A stretch of DNA of 46,586 bases from an uncultured Pseudomonadota bacterium (GTDB lineage Bacteria > Myxococcota_A > UBA796 > SXON01): positions 1 to 46,586 of the forward strand of contig CAIMSU010000207.1 in assembly GCA_903844155.1 (NCBI GenBank), given 5' to 3'. Below are positions 3,972 to 46,586 of the stretch, piece after piece. Made by a program: the position numbers and the translations under genes. Every line of letters begins with the position of its first letter. Position 1 is the stretch's first letter. A model generated the notes under the pieces. That model was not told the origin of the DNA. It was given only the letters and a program-made list of their open reading frames with translations, and did not search any database.

Positions 3972-5619
3972 GGGAGGCTCCGAGGTTGGCTTGGGTGAGG
4001 GCTTCGACGACGTCAGGACAAACCATGTTGCCGATCCGGGCGACCTGATCGCCCTTGGTCCCGTGCAACTTCATGGTCGGCCAGCCTTGCGCGGCGGCGA
4101 GCTCGCGGGGTTGGAGCATCCGCATGGCGATGTCCACGATGGCGCACTCTGTCCCGTCGATGGTCAGGGTGACGAGTCCGAACCGGTCAGTCGTCGTCAC
4201 CGTCCGAACCGGCTCCGTCAGCGGTTGGCCATCCCGCTCCGAGCCGTAGAACGCACACAGGAAGGCGGAGATGAGGGCGGCATGGTTGCCCTGTCCGGTG
4301 ACAGTCGCTGCGGGTTCTGTGATCGGCTGGCCCGCCTTGGCGGACCCGTGGAACTCATCGAGGAACACCGCGCCGAGCGAGTGATGGTCAACCGCCGTCA
4401 CGGTCGGCATCGGTGTCTCGATGTCCTTGCCCACGACGCCGGTGAAGTGCCGCGAGAGAAATGCCGCGACAACGCCGCCCTGGCTGCCCTTGCTCGTCAC
4501 CGTCTTGAATGGCCGGTCTGCGTCACGTGCGCGCGGGGCCTGGCCCTCGCGTTCGCCGTTGCCCGTGTCGATCAGGGTTGCGGCGGCCAGCGCGAATTGC
4601 TCTGTCGCCGTCAGTGTCGGGCCGGGAGTGTCCAGGTCGCGGACACCTGAGCGGGGCGTGTCGCTGCCGTTGCTGTGGGCTTTGACGATCACGGGTGCGA
4701 CGACACACCGATCCCCGCCCTTCGGAGTGCTGGTCAGCGTGTTCGCAGGCTCGTCGATGTTCTCGACTCGCCCGCCGTGCGACAGGTTGACGAGGAAGGG
4801 CCGCGGGTTGTTCAGCACGAACCGGCGGACGCCCTCCGCGATCCGGCGCTGGGTCGCCTCCGCCAACGGGCGCACCGGAACGCCGTCAGCCCCGGTCGCC
4901 TTGGCCCATTCCCGAGCCTCCGTTGGGGTGGCGAAGATCGAGAGCATCGGGATCGTCCAGTCGACGCACTCGGCCGCGGTGTGCCAGGGCTTCGCTCGGC
5001 CCGGTCCGTGCGTCGGCTCCGGCCAGCGGATCGGCTGACCGTCGCACCGGGCGACGAGGTAGAACCGCTTGCGGCTGGTCGGCGCTCCGTAGTCGCAGGC
5101 GATCAGGGTGCGCCATTCGACCGCGTAGCCCTCGGCGCGGAGCTGCTCGACGAACTCGGCGAAGGTCTCTCCGGCGCGGTCCTTGATCGGGGTGTCGTCC
5201 GCACCGACCGGGCCCCAGGTCACGAACTCCGGCACGTTCTCCATCATGATCACGCGGGGCTTGATCTGCCGCGCCCAGTCCACGATCACCCAGGCGAGGC
5301 CACGGATCTTCCTGTCCACCGGCTTCCCGCCCTTCGCTCGGGAGAAGTGCCGGCAGTCAGGCGAGGCCCACAGCAGGTCCACGGCTCGGCCCCGTGTCGC
5401 ATTGAGCGGCGGCACATCGAACACGCTCTCGCAGTAGTGCTCCGTCTCGGGATGGTTCGTGCGGTGCATCTCGATCGCGTGCTTGCAATGGTTGATCGCG
5501 ACCACGGGGCCGTGACCGAGCGCACGTCGGATGCCCTCGGACGCCCCGCCACCGCCCGCGAACAGGTCGATGCAGATCGGGCCGCGAACGCGGCCGAAGA
5601 GATGGCCGTCAGCGGGCAT
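3964..5619 (-). CDS. C5-cytosine DNA methyltransferase with repeated recognition modules
   Basis: Transfers a methyl group to carbon 5 of cytosine in phage DNA, probably to escape host restriction. The 551 residues show motif I (DLFAGGGGASEG, 18-29), motif IV with the nucleophile Cys89 in ASPDCRHFS, motif VI Glu127-Asn-Val, motif VIII TSRKR (181-185) and motifs IX/X near the C-terminus (PRELAAAQGWP, RIGNMV). SPDC in place of the common PC dipeptide context marks a phage/Dcm-like subfamily. The recognition region (about 275-490) is built of six related modules with an (E/D)xPxxT(V/L)T signature spaced 33-41 residues apart. No partner endonuclease is visible, so protection rather than restriction is inferred. 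Confidence 0.92.
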   Translation of the reverse strand: MPADGHLFGRVRGPICIDLFAGGGGASEGIRRALGHGPVVAINHCKHAIEMHRTNHPETEHYCESVFDVPPLNATRGRAVDLLWASPDCRHFSRAKGGKPVDRKIRGLAWVIVDWARQIKPRVIMMENVPEFVTWGPVGADDTPIKDRAGETFAEFVEQLRAEGYAVEWRTLIACDYGAPTSRKRFYLVARCDGQPIRWPEPTHGPGRAKPWHTAAECVDWTIPMLSIFATPTEAREWAKATGADGVPVRPLAEATQRRIAEGVRRFVLNNPRPFLVNLSHGGRVENIDEPANTLTSTPKGGDRCVVAPVIVKAHSNGSDTPRSGVRDLDTPGPTLTATEQFALAAATLIDTGNGEREGQAPRARDADRPFKTVTSKGSQGGVVAAFLSRHFTGVVGKDIETPMPTVTAVDHHSLGAVFLDEFHGSAKAGQPITEPAATVTGQGNHAALISAFLCAFYGSERDGQPLTEPVRTVTTTDRFGLVTLTIDGTECAIVDIAMRMLQPRELAAAQGWPTMKLHGTKGDQVARIGNMVCPDVVEALTQANLGASHA

Positions 5620-18305: not shown

Positions 18306-18550
18306 GCCCGCTCGCCTCCGTCCTCCTCTACGCCAGTCGTTACGCCCACGGCCGCCAGACCGGCGCCTACGTCGAGACGATCCAGGGCTGCCGCGCCGCG
18401 TGGCCCCTGCTCTCGCCGCGGGACCGCGCGTACCTGCTGACGCTCTGGCGTGAACAGCTCGCCGGCAACCTCCGGGGGGAGGAGCCGCACGTTGTCGCGG
18501 AGCGGAAGGCCTGGGATGCGTTGTTGGTGGAGTTTGGGGACGGCGCATGA
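18302..18550 (+). CDS. Hypothetical protein, 82 aa
   Basis: The GTG at 18302 overlaps the stop of the coiled-coil gene as GTGA, and the stop overlaps the next ATG as ATGA. The product is mostly helical (ASVLLYASRYAHGRQTGAYV, then SPRDRAYLLTLWREQLAGNL, then AERKAWDALLVEF), without cysteine pairs or a membrane segment. No family recognised. It belongs to the operon that leads into the replication initiator. Confidence 0.6.
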   Translation: MSPLASVLLYASRYAHGRQTGAYVETIQGCRAAWPLLSPRDRAYLLTLWREQLAGNLRGEEPHVVAERKAWDALLVEFGDGA

Positions 18551-18741
18551 CACAGCAGCCCCTGTTTCCGCCAGCCGCCCGGAGTTCGACCCCTGCACGG
18601 ATCGAGCCGCCCCACGATGACATGCGCCTCACGGTGGACGGTGTCGAGACGGGTGTGACCTACGGCGAGATGATGCGCGACCTGTGGGCGGCGCTCGCTC
18701 GGGACGGGATCACGCCGGCGATGTTTGGGGGTGCGGCGTGA
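18547..18741 (+). CDS. Hypothetical protein, 64 aa
   Basis: Coupled on both sides (ATGA at its start, GTGA at its end). The N-terminal half is Pro/Ser-rich and probably disordered; the second half (MRLTVDGVETGVTYGEMMRDLWAALARDGITPAMF) looks like a strand-turn-helix unit. Small proteins directly before an initiator gene are common in lambdoid replication modules, but no specific match is recognised. Confidence 0.55.
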   Translation: MTQQPLFPPAARSSTPARIEPPHDDMRLTVDGVETGVTYGEMMRDLWAALARDGITPAMFGGAA

Positions 18742-19715
18742 GGCCCCAGGACCGTACCCGCGCGATCATCGAAACCCGCCTGGAACTCTCCCTGCGGATG
18801 GTGCTCGTCGTCATCGCCGACCGGATGAGCGATGAGCGGCTGACATGCTGGCCGTCTGTGGAGACCATCGCAGCCGGAGCGGGCCTGTGCGAGCGCCATG
18901 CCCGTGACGTGCTCGACGACCTGGAGCAACGCGGTCTGATCCGCCGCTGGTCTGGCGAACACAAGAGCCGCGACATCGAAATTCGCTGGGATGCGCTCGC
19001 CGATGCGAAGCCGATCCCGACCGCTCGGGGAGGGAAACGACCGGCAAAGACTGCCACCCGACCGGCAAAGACTGCCGGTGAGGCGGCAAAGACTGCCGGT
19101 GATTCGACCGGCAAAGACTGCCACTCAGACCGGCAGTCTTTGCCACCTGAACCGGCAAAGACTGCCACATTGACCGGCAAAGACTGCCCCCGAAGCGACC
19201 ATGAAGCGACCATTGAAGCGACCAGTGAAGCGCCCAACGCGCGCGCGCCGGCCGACCCCGCCGCCGGGATGGAGCGACCGGCCCCCCGGAAACCCCGCCG
19301 CCCGGACACCGACAGCCCGGAGGTGCTCGTCGCCCCGGCCGACCTCGACTTCGCCAGCCTCGTTGACCGGGCTGGCAACCGAACGGACCTCGCCAACGCC
19401 CTTGCCGCGTCGGGGATCGAGACCGTCGCCGAGCTGGCCGGGATGACCTGGGAGGCCGTCAGTCGCCGCAAGGGCGTCGGCCCCCAGCGAGCCGACGACA
19501 TCGACAAGCACCTGAAACGCAGGACGGGTGAGGGTTTGTCGAGGATTCCGACCCCCAGACCGGGAGCACCGCCCGGCCGCCCGTCGGCATCGGGCTTGCT
19601 CGATGTCTTCGGCGAAGTCTACCGCGAAAGCCAACTTCAACCCTCGGAGCTGCCATGTTCGACCCAACAGAACCACTCACCATCTCGGCCATCGTTGCCA
19701 CGTTCGGCGAGCTGA
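18738..19715 (+). CDS. Lambda-O-like replication initiator with origin inside the gene
   Basis: The 325-residue protein starts at GTG 18738 (GTGA overlap). Residues about 5-85 form a winged helix-turn-helix typical of phage replication proteins (LSLRMVLVVIADRMSDERLT, WPSVETIAAGAGLCERHARD, LDDLEQRGLIRRWSG). Residues about 102-152 come from the iteron array: the same DNA repeat is read as PAKTA, TGKDC or, inverted, RQSLP in different frames, so the repeats are kept at DNA level. A C-terminal helix-hairpin-helix-like part follows (GIETVAELAGMTWEAVSRRKGVGPQ). By analogy to lambda O, it would bind the iterons and recruit helicase. That role is inferred from architecture. Confidence 0.72.
   Translation: MRPQDRTRAIIETRLELSLRMVLVVIADRMSDERLTCWPSVETIAAGAGLCERHARDVLDDLEQRGLIRRWSGEHKSRDIEIRWDALADAKPIPTARGGKRPAKTATRPAKTAGEAAKTAGDSTGKDCHSDRQSLPPEPAKTATLTGKDCPRSDHEATIEATSEAPNARAPADPAAGMERPAPRKPRRPDTDSPEVLVAPADLDFASLVDRAGNRTDLANALAASGIETVAELAGMTWEAVSRRKGVGPQRADDIDKHLKRRTGEGLSRIPTPRPGAPPGRPSASGLLDVFGEVYRESQLQPSELPCSTQQNHSPSRPSLPRSAS
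19041..19188. repeat. Iteron array, probable phage replication origin
   Basis: Seven copies of a 13-15 base unit, CCGGCAAAGACTGCC: direct at 19041-19055, 19062-19076, 19083-19097 (first positions GC), 19108-19122, 19152-19166 and 19174-19188, and one inverted core GGCAGTCTTTGCC at 19132-19144. Starts are 20-25 bases apart, close to two helical turns. The array lies inside the initiator gene, as in lambda O. Copies fall in different reading frames, so selection is on the DNA. Confidence 0.75.
19192..19235. repeat. Short GAAGCGACC repeats beside the iterons
   Basis: GAAGCGACC occurs at 19192-19200, 19203-19211 and 19215-19223, with a fourth copy GAAGCGCCC at 19227-19235; starts are 11, 12 and 12 bases apart. 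The first spacing changes the reading frame. The repeats begin four bases after the last iteron, where lambdoid origins have an unwinding element, although this one is not AT-rich. It may be a second binding site or part of the origin. Confidence 0.5.
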
Positions 19716-20404
19716 TCGGCGCCGGAATTCGTGGCGCCCCGGCCCCGTTTCTCGACACAGACCCGAATCGAGCCGACCAACGCAAGGCGGCGGTATGGTC
19801 CGCTGCGGAGACCTGGCTCCGGCAGCTTCCCGGCTGGACTCGGGGTGATCTCCGCGCCGCCCTCGACAAGTACTCCGACACCGAGTTCGGTGGCATGTGG
19901 CCGACAACGGCAGACCTGAAGCGGGTCCACGGCGCTGGGGGTGGCCTTCGCCTCTCGAACGACGCCGCCTGGGCCAGCGTCGCCCCCATCGCCCATCGAC
20001 ACATCCCCGCCGACGAGCTGACCCAGCTCGGCCTCACCTCGACCCAGCGCGCCGCCGTCGAGGACCTCCCCGACGCCTACAGCCGCGCCCGGATGTCCGT
20101 CAGCGAGATCGCCGGACTCCGCCGCCCGTTCCTTGCGGCCTGTCAAGCTGCGGAGGCGCGCGCTGCAAACCCGACGCCAGCCAAGGTGATCCCGATGCGC
20201 CCCGAGCCTCCCCGGCTCGCGGTGGACAACACGCCGACCTTCACCGACGAGCAGCTCGCGGAGAACCGGCGTCGCGTCGCCGCCCTCATCTCGCCACAGA
20301 GGGCCGCCCCCGTCGCCCGCGCTCCAGTCGATGAGGCCGAGCTGCGGGAGCGCGCTCGGGAGAAGGCCGAGCAGCTTCGGGCGCGGTTTGGGGGGCAGCG
20401 ATGA
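19655..20404 (+). CDS. Probable helicase-loader-like replication protein
   Basis: A 249-residue protein starting at ATG 19655 with GGAG six bases upstream; it overlaps the end of the initiator gene by 61 bases. Residues 1-95 (TISAIVATFGELIGAGIRG, then AAVWSAAETWLRQLPGWTRGDLRAALDKY, then GGMWPTTADLKRVH) resemble the N-terminal domain of phage helicase loaders/inhibitors, in which a helical bundle ends in a W/F-P-T-xx-E/D-x-(K/R) motif. The rest is a linker and a charged helical tail. The position right after the O-like gene matches lambda P. Moderate confidence; a different helical protein is possible. Confidence 0.5.
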   Translation: MFDPTEPLTISAIVATFGELIGAGIRGAPAPFLDTDPNRADQRKAAVWSAAETWLRQLPGWTRGDLRAALDKYSDTEFGGMWPTTADLKRVHGAGGGLRLSNDAAWASVAPIAHRHIPADELTQLGLTSTQRAAVEDLPDAYSRARMSVSEIAGLRRPFLAACQAAEARAANPTPAKVIPMRPEPPRLAVDNTPTFTDEQLAENRRRVAALISPQRAAPVARAPVDEAELRERAREKAEQLRARFGGQR

Positions 20405-21053: not shown

Positions 21054-21689
21054 ATGGCCGCTCGTCAACCAGCACCCGGGACCGCCGACAGGGCTACGGT
21101 TCTGGCGTGGATCGATGCGGAGCCGGGGAGGGGCTATCGAACGGCTGCGGCCATGTTCGGGCTGCCGGTTCAGCGCGTGAAGAATTGGACGGCGCGACGA
21201 ACCCCAGTGAACCCCAGTGAACCCCACGCGAACCCCAGTGGTGGGGCGAAGATGGCGCTTGTAGGCGGGAAGCGAGAGGCGCCGGCGCAGACCGTCCCGA
21301 AGCTCGCGCGCGGGGTCGTCAACCTCGACGCATGCGCTCCCGAGATGCGCGAGCACCTCCGCGGGATGGCATGGGGGCTCGCAGCGTTCGGCGACCTGGT
21401 GCGCGAGGCGATGATCGAGCGGCGTGCTGCCTCCGCGGAGCGCGCCCGGCTCCGCGCCACCGGGATGAACATGGACGAGGTCGACAAGTGCGTCCCGCTG
21501 CCCTCGCTGCCCGACATGCGACAGGTCGACGCCGGGGCGCGGGCACTGAAGACGACGCTGGAGATTTCGCCCGCGCTCGCCTCCGAGGTCGCTGGCCATG
21601 CGCGGGACGGCCTGAACGCTGGCGAGCTCGCGGACCTCGACGACAAGGTGCTCACCCCCGGTCCTGTGGTGTTGCGGATCGCGAAGTGA
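21054..21689 (+). CDS. terS: Putative terminase small subunit
   Basis: A 211-residue protein located directly before, and GTGA-coupled to, the large terminase. The N-terminus has an HTH-like part (ATVLAWIDAEPGRGYRTAAAMFGLPVQRVKNWTA) suited to recognising the packaging site; the middle and C-terminus are helical. AGGA lies about eight bases before ATG 21054. The identification rests on position and HTH, not on a family match. The gene contains four GAACCCCA repeats (21199-21237) that could be the packaging recognition site. Confidence 0.65.
   Translation: MAARQPAPGTADRATVLAWIDAEPGRGYRTAAAMFGLPVQRVKNWTARRTPVNPSEPHANPSGGAKMALVGGKREAPAQTVPKLARGVVNLDACAPEMREHLRGMAWGLAAFGDLVREAMIERRAASAERARLRATGMNMDEVDKCVPLPSLPDMRQVDAGARALKTTLEISPALASEVAGHARDGLNAGELADLDDKVLTPGPVVLRIAK
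21199..21237. repeat. GAACCCCA repeats, candidate pac site
   Basis: GAACCCCA at 21199-21206, 21209-21216, 21219-21226 and 21230-21237, starts 10, 10 and 11 bases apart, one helical turn each. The spacing shifts the reading frame, so the repeat is not a protein repeat. Packaging sites of several headful phages lie inside the small-terminase gene, which makes this a candidate TerS binding site. Confidence 0.45.
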
Positions 21690-23474: not shown

Positions 23475-23660
23475 ATGCCCCCTGCGTTCACGCTCGCCGT
23501 CCCGTCAGCACTCCCCGACCCGAGCGGAGCGGACGATCCCGACATCATCTGCGAGCACCCACCCGAGGCCCGGATTCAAGATCCGGACAGCGACGCGGTG
23601 CTCTGCATGATCTGCGCGGCGGATGTCACTACCCTCCCCACGATGCCCGCCACGGACTGA
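23475..23660 (+). CDS. Small Cys-motif protein, 61 aa
   Basis: ATG 23475 has CGGAG six bases upstream. After a Pro/Ala-rich beginning, the sequence has CEHPPE and, about 20 residues later, VLCMICAAD, a possible zinc knuckle. Its last 32 bases overlap the end of the convergent head-morphogenesis gene. Function unknown; it closes the rightward terminase operon. Confidence 0.5.
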   Translation: MPPAFTLAVPSALPDPSGADDPDIICEHPPEARIQDPDSDAVLCMICAADVTTLPTMPATD

Positions 23661-24528
23661 TCCTACCCCGCTCGTTGTAGTGGGCAGGCAGGTTGAACCC
23701 GACATAGTCCGCCCCTTCAACAGGCCAGAGGATCCCCGACACCCGCCGCACGCCCATCGCTGCGGCGACCACCTCGACAGCCGCGACCGGGACGTGAAAG
23801 GGCCTGTCCATCGGGGCGGTGACATCCTCCGAAGCCCGCGAGAACGGGTGATTTCGCTTGTCGCGCAGCTCGATGATCTGCCGCATCAGCGGGTCCGTCG
23901 TCCCCGGCTCGTCGAGGACCTTGGCGGCCTCTTCCATCGTCTGCTGTGAGGAGTCGTTGTAGGCCCGGGAGACCTCCATGCGAACGATCAGCTCAGCCGA
24001 TCCCGCGTTTCTGGCGAGCGTCCCGACGGTCCCGCACACCGTCTCAGTCATCTGCGGGATCGACTTCCCGGAGGCCAGCCCGGCGCCAATGTCCCGGGCG
24101 ATCCGGTCTACGATCTGGCGGCCGTACCGCTCCAGGCTGTGACGATGGAGGAGGAGGGCGTCGGGCTCCAGAATGCGGGCCAACGCCTGAAACTGGATGC
24201 GGTTCCCGGCGTCGACGAGCACCCGCTCGTTGTCCCGGATCGCCGCCAGAACGTGCCCCATTGCTAGGCGACCCACTGGCAACGCCGCGGCCTCGACCTG
24301 CTCGCCGAGGCGCTGTGTCAGCATCCGGGACGCAGCATCGACCTGAGCGAGCATCACCCGCGCCTGCTGGGCACTGTAGGGGGTCGCCGTGTCGTCGATG
24401 GCCAGGAGCTGATCTTGGAGTGCCCGCCGCGCATCGTTCAGCGTGGCGAGGCAGCGGCGGGCCTGCGCGTCCGACAACCGTTCGAGGGCGAGGTCCTGAC
24501 GGTAGAGGAGATCGTTGATCGGCGGCAT
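23629..24528 (-). CDS. Mu gpF-like head morphogenesis protein
   Basis: A 299-residue minor head protein. The N-terminal two thirds are helical; the C-terminal domain has the family pattern: VRMEVSRAYNDSSQQTM, then ELRDKRNHPFSRA, then RRVSGILWPVEGADYVGFNLPAHYNERGRISPW. The last part corresponds to the PPxHxxCRG-like end of Mu F/SPP1 gp7 proteins, without the usual cysteines. Such proteins sit inside the procapsid near the portal. It lies directly after the portal gene, but both run leftward, opposite to the terminase and capsid genes. Start ATG 24528. Confidence 0.8.
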   Translation of the reverse strand: MPPINDLLYRQDLALERLSDAQARRCLATLNDARRALQDQLLAIDDTATPYSAQQARVMLAQVDAASRMLTQRLGEQVEAAALPVGRLAMGHVLAAIRDNERVLVDAGNRIQFQALARILEPDALLLHRHSLERYGRQIVDRIARDIGAGLASGKSIPQMTETVCGTVGTLARNAGSAELIVRMEVSRAYNDSSQQTMEEAAKVLDEPGTTDPLMRQIIELRDKRNHPFSRASEDVTAPMDRPFHVPVAAVEVVAAAMGVRRVSGILWPVEGADYVGFNLPAHYNERGRISPWRASWGG

Positions 24529-24531
24529 GGT

Positions 24532-25968
24532 CTACGCGACCGGATCGCCCGGCGGCGGCTTCGGCTCTGGCGGAGGCGTCGGCGCGAACCCGGGCTGCTC
24601 GGAGTAGTCGGCGTCGTCGAGTTCCTTGTTGACGGTTTCCAGCACGCCCGGTGCGACATCGACGAGGAACCCGGCTGCCGTCGCCTTGGCCACCTCGCGC
24701 CGGAACGTCTCGGACTTGACCAGCGGGGCCGCGAGCTGCGCGCTGGCGAGCATCGCCTGCAGGTCCCCCTCGTCCCAGCCGTCGAGGCCGGTGACGGTGA
24801 TCTTGTCGGGGGCGACCCTGAACACGTCGGCAAGCCGGAGCGCAACCGCTTTCATCGCGCCCCGCACGACATCGGCGTAGGCGTCGAGGACGATCTCCAG
24901 CGCCTTCCAGTCGAGATCCTTTGATGCCCCGCTGGCTCCCGCGCCTTCTTTCCCCACGCTCGCGCCCATCTGGTGAGCGGTTCGGTAGATCCCCTGTCTG
25001 GAGACCTCGATCCGGCTGGCGAGCGCGGCGTAGCAGGCTCCGGTCGGCTCCGCGAACGTGACCGAGTCGTTCGGCCCGACCTGGAGATACGCGCCGGCTC
25101 CGAGCGCGGGGCGGCGCGTCCCGTCCTCGGAGGCCACGACCATCAGGGCGTGCGCGCCTCGATGCAGAGCCCAGTTCAGATCATTGGCGAGGCCAGCGAG
25201 CTCGACCGCGGGATCACGCAGCTTGCCGCCAATGTGAAGCCCGGCGGGCAGCACCAAGCGCACGACAGGGAGATCGGGCCGGTTGTGGGCGATGTTCAGG
25301 CCCTCTCCCGCGTCGTCATCTGGAGCCGGGACCTGCGCGCCATCCTTCGTCCGGGGTGTCCACTCCCAGCGCGAGATCCCGACCTCGTCAATCGCGGTCC
25401 ATCGGTAGACGGTCCGCTGAGGCTCAACGAGGGTCGCCTGTTCGACGCACACGTCCCGGATCATGACGGCGGAGAGCGCGCCTGTCTCGTCGTCGATCCA
25501 GTTCGGCACCATCGCCGCAGGGACGCTCACGAGTCGCGGGCGGGAGAGGCCGAGCGCATCCTCCTCCGCGCGACTCGTCGGCGCGACATCGGGAGGCTTC
25601 GGGAAGTTGATCCACGCGAACGCGCGCCCATCCTTGGCCGCGTTGGTGACGATGTCGCGCCACCACGTTGACCAGCTCGTACCCTGCCCGTCCACGTCGG
25701 CCGTCCAGTCGTCGGGCAGGCCTGTCACGATGGCCGGGGCCTCGAACAGCCAGCCGATCATCAGGTCGATGATCGGCGCGACGTTGTTCTCGTAGACCGC
25801 TCGGCGGGACCGCTCGGCGTAGGCCGGGTCGCTCTCCAGTTCGCGCTGCGGCATGAACACCGCGAGCCGCCCATGCCAGAGGTCGCCGCCTTCGTAAAGT
25901 GCGGCGATGTCGGCCAGTAGTTCCGGCTTGAATGAGGGGTGACGCTGATCCAAGGTGGAGACTTTCAT
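24532..25968 (-). CDS. Portal protein
   Basis: The 478-residue protein would form the dodecameric ring through which DNA enters the head. It has the layout of DUF4055-type portals: N-terminal helical part (YEGGDLWHGRLAVFMPQRE, YENNVAPIIDLMIGWLFEAP), central strands (FAWINFPKPP, LVSVPAAMVPNWIDDETG) and a C-terminal helical stem (DLDWKALEIVLDAYADVVRG). The tail is Pro-rich. It precedes the Mu-F-like gene, the usual pair, and shares a divergent promoter region with the scaffold gene. No ribosome-binding site is seen before ATG 25968, so it may be translated from a leaderless message. Confidence 0.8.
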   Translation of the reverse strand: MKVSTLDQRHPSFKPELLADIAALYEGGDLWHGRLAVFMPQRELESDPAYAERSRRAVYENNVAPIIDLMIGWLFEAPAIVTGLPDDWTADVDGQGTSWSTWWRDIVTNAAKDGRAFAWINFPKPPDVAPTSRAEEDALGLSRPRLVSVPAAMVPNWIDDETGALSAVMIRDVCVEQATLVEPQRTVYRWTAIDEVGISRWEWTPRTKDGAQVPAPDDDAGEGLNIAHNRPDLPVVRLVLPAGLHIGGKLRDPAVELAGLANDLNWALHRGAHALMVVASEDGTRRPALGAGAYLQVGPNDSVTFAEPTGACYAALASRIEVSRQGIYRTAHQMGASVGKEGAGASGASKDLDWKALEIVLDAYADVVRGAMKAVALRLADVFRVAPDKITVTGLDGWDEGDLQAMLASAQLAAPLVKSETFRREVAKATAAGFLVDVAPGVLETVNKELDDADYSEQPGFAPTPPPEPKPPPGDPVA

Positions 25969-46569: not shown

Positions 46570-46586
46570 GGCGGCAGGCCATGAGA
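46570..46586. other. Right att core (putative attR)
   Basis: The last 17 bases are identical to the first 17. After excision, one copy would remain in the phage attP between the right and left arm sites. The 112 bases between the arm repeats and this core (46458-46569) hold no recognisable gene. Confidence 0.6.

Follow-up and report, generated by a model that had tools for sequence, protein, structure and literature searches.

Initiation of replication in phage lambda starts with the binding of O protein dimers to the iterons; the DNA bends, the adjacent region opens, and the P protein loads DnaB (PMC5043065, PMC7466680). The number of iterons varies, from four in lambda to six in Stx phages (PMC7466680). 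Both origins have an AT-rich tract 3′ of the iterons, which we take as a typical rather than a strictly defining feature. Plasmid iterons, in contrast, bind initiator monomers (PMC5043065). Origins of replication can also contain short sequences that are recognized in single-stranded form. In plasmid RK2, TrfA binds four 13-mers beside the iterons as one single strand (PMC4081077). In Bacillus subtilis, DnaD reads a strand-specific element, and short ssDNA motifs are found beside double-stranded initiator sites (PMC10201434).

The window analyzed here is a whole contig of 46,586 bp (C207) belonging to an 8.1-Mb assembly. Its two ends carry the same 17 bp (1-17 and 46570-46586; GGCGGCAGGCCATGAGA), which suggests that the contig is a complete circular phage genome. 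Judged by the predicted gene products, the gene order is lambda-like. Genes for a tyrosine integrase, a methyltransferase, RecT and RecE are read leftward, while those for a CII-like regulator, RusA, the initiator and the terminase are read rightward. The GTG start codon of the initiator gene overlaps the stop codon of the preceding reading frame (18547-18741). Its product matches PHROGs families 270 (E 2.5e-12), 1032 (2.9e-11) and 391 (1.7e-10), the last annotated as ‘replication initiation O-like’. The N-terminal winged helix, which could be aligned with those of four distant initiators, is presumed to be the iteron-binding domain. A possible helix-hairpin-helix domain in the C-terminal part matches HHH_5 with an E value of 1.1e-5, just under the curated cut-off. 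HTH_36 and weak helix-hairpin-helix-type matches were the only ones in the Pfam scan; a plasmid-type Rep initiator such as Rep_3 was not among them. A PDB sequence search gave nothing useful, and single-sequence AlphaFold modeling led to poor results (mean pLDDT 43 and 53).

Just past the winged-helix code and inside the initiator gene lies an array of iterons (Table 1). A previous sequence-only reading had reported six direct copies and one inverted copy of a repeat in this region, and we indeed found seven exact copies of the 13-mer GGCAAAGACTGCC between 19043 and 19188, with start-to-start steps of 21, 21, 25, 22, 22 and 22 bp. The longer 15-mer CCGGCAAAGACTGCC proposed in that reading is exact in copies 1, 2, 4, 6 and 7, whereas copy 3 starts with GC and the inverted copy with GT. 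Such an accumulation is not seen in shuffled sequences: when the initiator gene was shuffled 1000 times synonymously and 1000 times by codon, no 13-mer exceeded three copies per 200 bp, and in the remainder of the contig none exceeded two. Outside the array, GGCAAAGACTGCC does not occur anywhere in the 8.1-Mb assembly.

Table 1. Features of the initiator gene and its 3′ neighbor in the window.
Feature	Position	Strand	Basis or remark
Lambda-O-like replication initiator gene, 325 aa	18738..19715	+	PHROGs and Pfam profile matches
N-terminal winged helix code, residues 14-68	18777..18941	+	Pfam HTH_36, E 8.4e-8
Iteron 1	19043..19055	+	GGCAAAGACTGCC
Iteron 2	19064..19076	+	extended perfect dyad CCGGCA-N5-TGCCGG
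Iteron 3	19085..19097	+	
Iteron 4	19110..19122	+	after the sole 25-bp step
Iteron 5	19132..19144	-	inverted copy
Iteron 6	19154..19166	+	
Iteron 7	19176..19188	+	
Second repeat block	19191..19237	+	four GAAGCG(A/C)CC copies, 11-12-bp steps
Possible C-terminal helix-hairpin-helix code, residues 218-259	19389..19514	+	Pfam HHH_5
Next gene, candidate helicase loader at the lambda P position (tentative)	19655..20404	+	BLASTP to sibling gene

The array is conserved as DNA and not as protein, as had been claimed from the frames in which the copies are read. Copies 1 to 3 and 6 encode (P/A)AKTA, copies 4 and 7 encode GKDC, and the inverted copy encodes RQSLP. Moreover, the repeats make use of codons that 25 other genes of the contig seldom employ (GCA 7%, ACT 4.5%, TCT 5.8%, TTG 5.5%), and GC3 drops to 0.59 in the array from 0.79-0.80 on both flanks. 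The iteron cores do not differ at all, while identity among the spacers is only about 52%. A single-sequence model of low confidence predicts disorder for the peptide stretch that the array encodes (pLDDT around 30), as would suit a protein-level repeat in a disordered linker that was kept by duplication and has no function as DNA. Such a repeat would hardly encode three different peptides, one of them from an antisense copy, nor keep identical cores and rare codons between diverged spacers, and relatives hold the same place with other sequences; we regard this explanation as very improbable. A neutral recent tandem duplication of a 21-22-bp unit is just as doubtful. Regular spacing and identical cores are in its favor, but the spacers have diverged and the cores have not, one core is flipped, and arrays are present at the same place in relatives.

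All seven iterons are dyads of the form GGCA-N5-TGCC, that is, imperfect inverted repeats as a lambda-type origin requires. This symmetry sheds a different light on the inverted copy, which had been regarded as an unusual addition. On the plus strand, iteron 5 reads GACCGGCA-GTCTT-TGCCACC (ACCGGCA-GTCTT-TGCCACC) and equals direct copy 1 outside its 5-bp core (GACCGGCA.....TGCCACC); read from the opposite strand, it also agrees with copy 3 at 19 of 20 positions. The site is thus a near-dyad in which just the 5-bp core is flipped, and with flanks equal to those of copy 1 we rejected the idea of a special element. As the dyad axis is located 22 bp from each neighbor and the arms are kept, a dimer reading the arms would hardly notice the flip, and the inverted copy is probably neutral for such a protein. 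In Bifidobacterium phage PMBT6 (L033), codons 102-153 contain large palindromic iterons of the CGGGGTGACACCCATGTCACCCCG type with halves in both orientations. Since these halves face both ways, the window is not the only case of mixed orientation among O-type arrays.

Distant O-like initiator genes carry phage-specific repeats at this place as well. Seventeen O-like initiators, including that of the window, were picked by protein similarity or family profile only and were scored for at least three copies of their own 11-mer chained at steps of 19-26 (or 39-51) bp. Own repeats were found at the same place in 13 of the 17 genes but in none of 41 other genes of the same genomes, and all 13 arrays begin between codons 89 and 146. 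A score of at least three was likewise reached by seven of ten further initiators, among them lambda, which served as control and was recovered with the same layout and its annotated iterons. The same order includes another genome with a sibling prophage (G024:C181; capsid protein 56% identical), which carries five dyads GTGCAACCGTTGCAC at the corresponding place of its O-like gene, 17-23 bp apart and in shifting frames. Because arrays recur in this way and the sibling prophage has a different iteron, the comparison indicates that the place of the array is conserved, whereas the iteron sequence is replicon-specific. The expectation that repeats persist in relatives while frames drift therefore holds at a distance: the repeats stay, and their sequences and frames change.

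Closer relatives were searched for in IMG/VR. Protein searches with the initiator returned no close relatives, the terminase query had no match, and exact double 13-mers were absent. One IMG/VR relative with a 95% identical capsid protein is represented by a sequence without the region upstream of the terminase. Two genome contigs that matched the double 13-mer were discarded as unrelated sequence without an O-like gene. In one (L011), the 13-mers lie beside genes unlike an initiator. The other (L012, positions 4788-5224), from a Spirochaetaceae MAG, contains an intergenic array of 22-bp repeats including GGCAAAGACTGCC, away from any O-like gene. Two candidate homologues from relatives (L009, L010) were without a comparable array.

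The O-like profiles, the place of the array, its recurrence in relatives and the lambda-like gene order together support the earlier proposal of a phage origin. In our view, a temperate tailed phage is likely to have its replication origin here, within the initiator gene and of the lambda type. The cumulative GC-skew curve, suggested as a check, peaks near 12 kb and has no turn at 19.1 kb, which speaks neither for nor against an origin. Autoregulation is frequent among winged-helix proteins and the array is situated in an operon, so that it might mainly be an operator through which the initiator or a phage repressor regulates the replication operon, with replication starting elsewhere. However, it is located some 300 bp into the gene and away from a promoter position, its seven phased copies exceed the number in usual operators, and the intragenic placement is that of the proven lambda origin (PMC7466680, PMC5043065) and recurs in O-like relatives. 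An operator role is accordingly unlikely. Even less probable is a centromere-like (parS) or incompatibility array of a phage-plasmid. Repeat arrays do serve partition, and some of the distant matches come from plasmid records, but the contig carries a tyrosine integrase, and none of the 30 gene models scanned against PHROGs matched a ParA or ParB family.

Like the origins of lambda and the Stx phages, this putative phage origin has a winged-helix initiator whose gene contains the iterons, past the DNA-binding domain; the iterons are again imperfect inverted repeats with steps of about 20-24 bp, and short repeats follow directly 3′ of them. It differs in the number of iterons (seven), in their unrelated sequence, in their shorter core of 13 bp and in the flipped core of one copy. 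Unlike the lambda initiator, that of the window has a possible helix-hairpin-helix-like domain at its C terminus, and the candidate loader is not recognizable as lambda P. The latter resembles the gene that follows the initiator in the sibling prophage (BLASTP E 2e-4), the N-terminal 100 residues of which weakly match a helicase-loader PHROG (E 0.012); a direct family match of the window's gene in Pfam or PHROGs was not obtained. Iteron plasmids such as RK2 (oriV/TrfA) and F (RepE) also combine iterons with adjoining short repeats. In contrast to these, the array of the window is intragenic and no plasmid Rep family is among the matches.

The lambda model fits the anatomy of the window, with the AT-rich tract as the missing lambda feature. 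The 60 bp following the array have a GC content of 68%, compared with 67% for the whole gene, and do not contain an AT-rich tract. Duplex stability 3′ of the array is only moderately lowered, and short, GC-containing 12-bp repeats are found there instead. This second repeat block was overlooked in the sequence-only reading, which had described the iteron array. Its copies are, in order, GAAGCGACCAT, GAAGCGACCATT, GAAGCGACCAGT and GAAGCGCCC, the first being in another frame. The block has the highest short-tandem score in the contig (20/22 at lag 12), and past it the GC content climbs to 80-90%. Among the relatives, the GC content after the array is below that of the own gene in 11 of 12 cases.

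Short repeats of 11-15 bp on the coding strand, often with AACC every 11-13 bp and in shifting frames, recur directly 3′ of the iterons across O-like phages, and most O-like relatives have a block that corresponds to that of the window. In 26 genes, the short tandem self-similarity of the 62 nt after the array averaged 15.1 of 22, as against 11.0 in other segments of the same genes (Mann-Whitney p 5e-10). At least two coding-strand AACC motifs were present after the array in 10 of 18 discovery genes and in 5 of 163 other segments. In genes fetched after the motif had been noted, the corresponding numbers were 5 of 8 and 4 of 71; for these AACC and tandem counts, array ends were set by eye, and several genes are related, forming about nine groups by iteron type. 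None of the post-array stretches in the same gene sets contained two or more GGTT. The AACC motif occurs in all three frames, for instance as RTV, EPS and NRP in Arthrobacter phage Andrew. Dyad iterons about 22 bp apart followed by short tandem repeats are common to the window, its sibling prophage and phages of Arthrobacter, Bifidobacterium, Vibrio, Pseudomonas, Klebsiella, Rhodobacter and Pseudanabaena. Each of them has its own iteron, and most carry second repeats of the AACC type, whereas the block of the window lacks AACC and has GCGACCA instead. Literature searches of partial coverage did not return a description of this second repeat element.

By analogy with the RK2 13-mers and the B. 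subtilis DnaD element, the second block is a candidate element for strand opening or helicase loading. The analogy to the DnaA-trios and the DnaD recognition element of B. subtilis oriC is functional only, as motifs and proteins differ. In the course of events that we propose, an initiator dimer would bind each GGCA-N5-TGCC iteron through its winged helix, and with the seven sites spaced by about two helical turns, the DNA would be wrapped up in a nucleoprotein complex. The resulting strain would open the duplex in or next to the block of short repeats, where the initiator and a helicase loader, perhaps the product of the next gene, would load the host replicative helicase. More generally, O-like phage origins could consist of replicon-specific dyad iterons and a strand-specific short repeat 3′ of them, often RAACC every 11-13 bp, that is shared among phages whose hosts belong to several phyla. 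This short repeat would then serve as a common motif for single-strand binding or helicase loading, recognized by a host factor or by some conserved portion of the initiator and analogous to plasmid 13-mers or DnaA-trios; the window has a diverged version of the repeat (GCGACCATTGAA, four times). We put this forward tentatively, being almost evenly divided over it.

Two further observations concern the genes downstream. Four GAACCCCA(GT) repeats at 10-13-bp steps (21196-21240) read RTPVNPSEPHANPS in shifting frames inside ORF 21054-21689. An HTH-like stretch immediately precedes them, and the large-terminase match is found shortly downstream (about 21731). The family matches of this ORF are limited to a marginal HTH, and it may encode the small terminase subunit and contain pac/cosB-like sites of its own. 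Furthermore, the head-morphogenesis and portal genes (23629-24528 and 24532-25968) are on the minus strand, flanked by the terminase on one side and by the scaffold and capsid genes on the other, all of which are on the plus strand. In the sibling prophage, the corresponding genes are co-directional with the terminase, so that a segment appears to be inverted; an IMG/VR relative (L043) has the arrangement of the window.

In summary, the array is best seen as a further case of the known lambda-type origin, and it is the two-element pattern that deserves follow-up more. With it, the lambda paradigm is extended to a phage that is rich in GC and has an uncultured host. As the repeats sit at a predictable place, origins can be sought within the HTH_36/O-like initiator genes themselves. 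Should the second element be borne out, it would provide a testable candidate site of opening and helicase loading in phages without an AT-rich tract.
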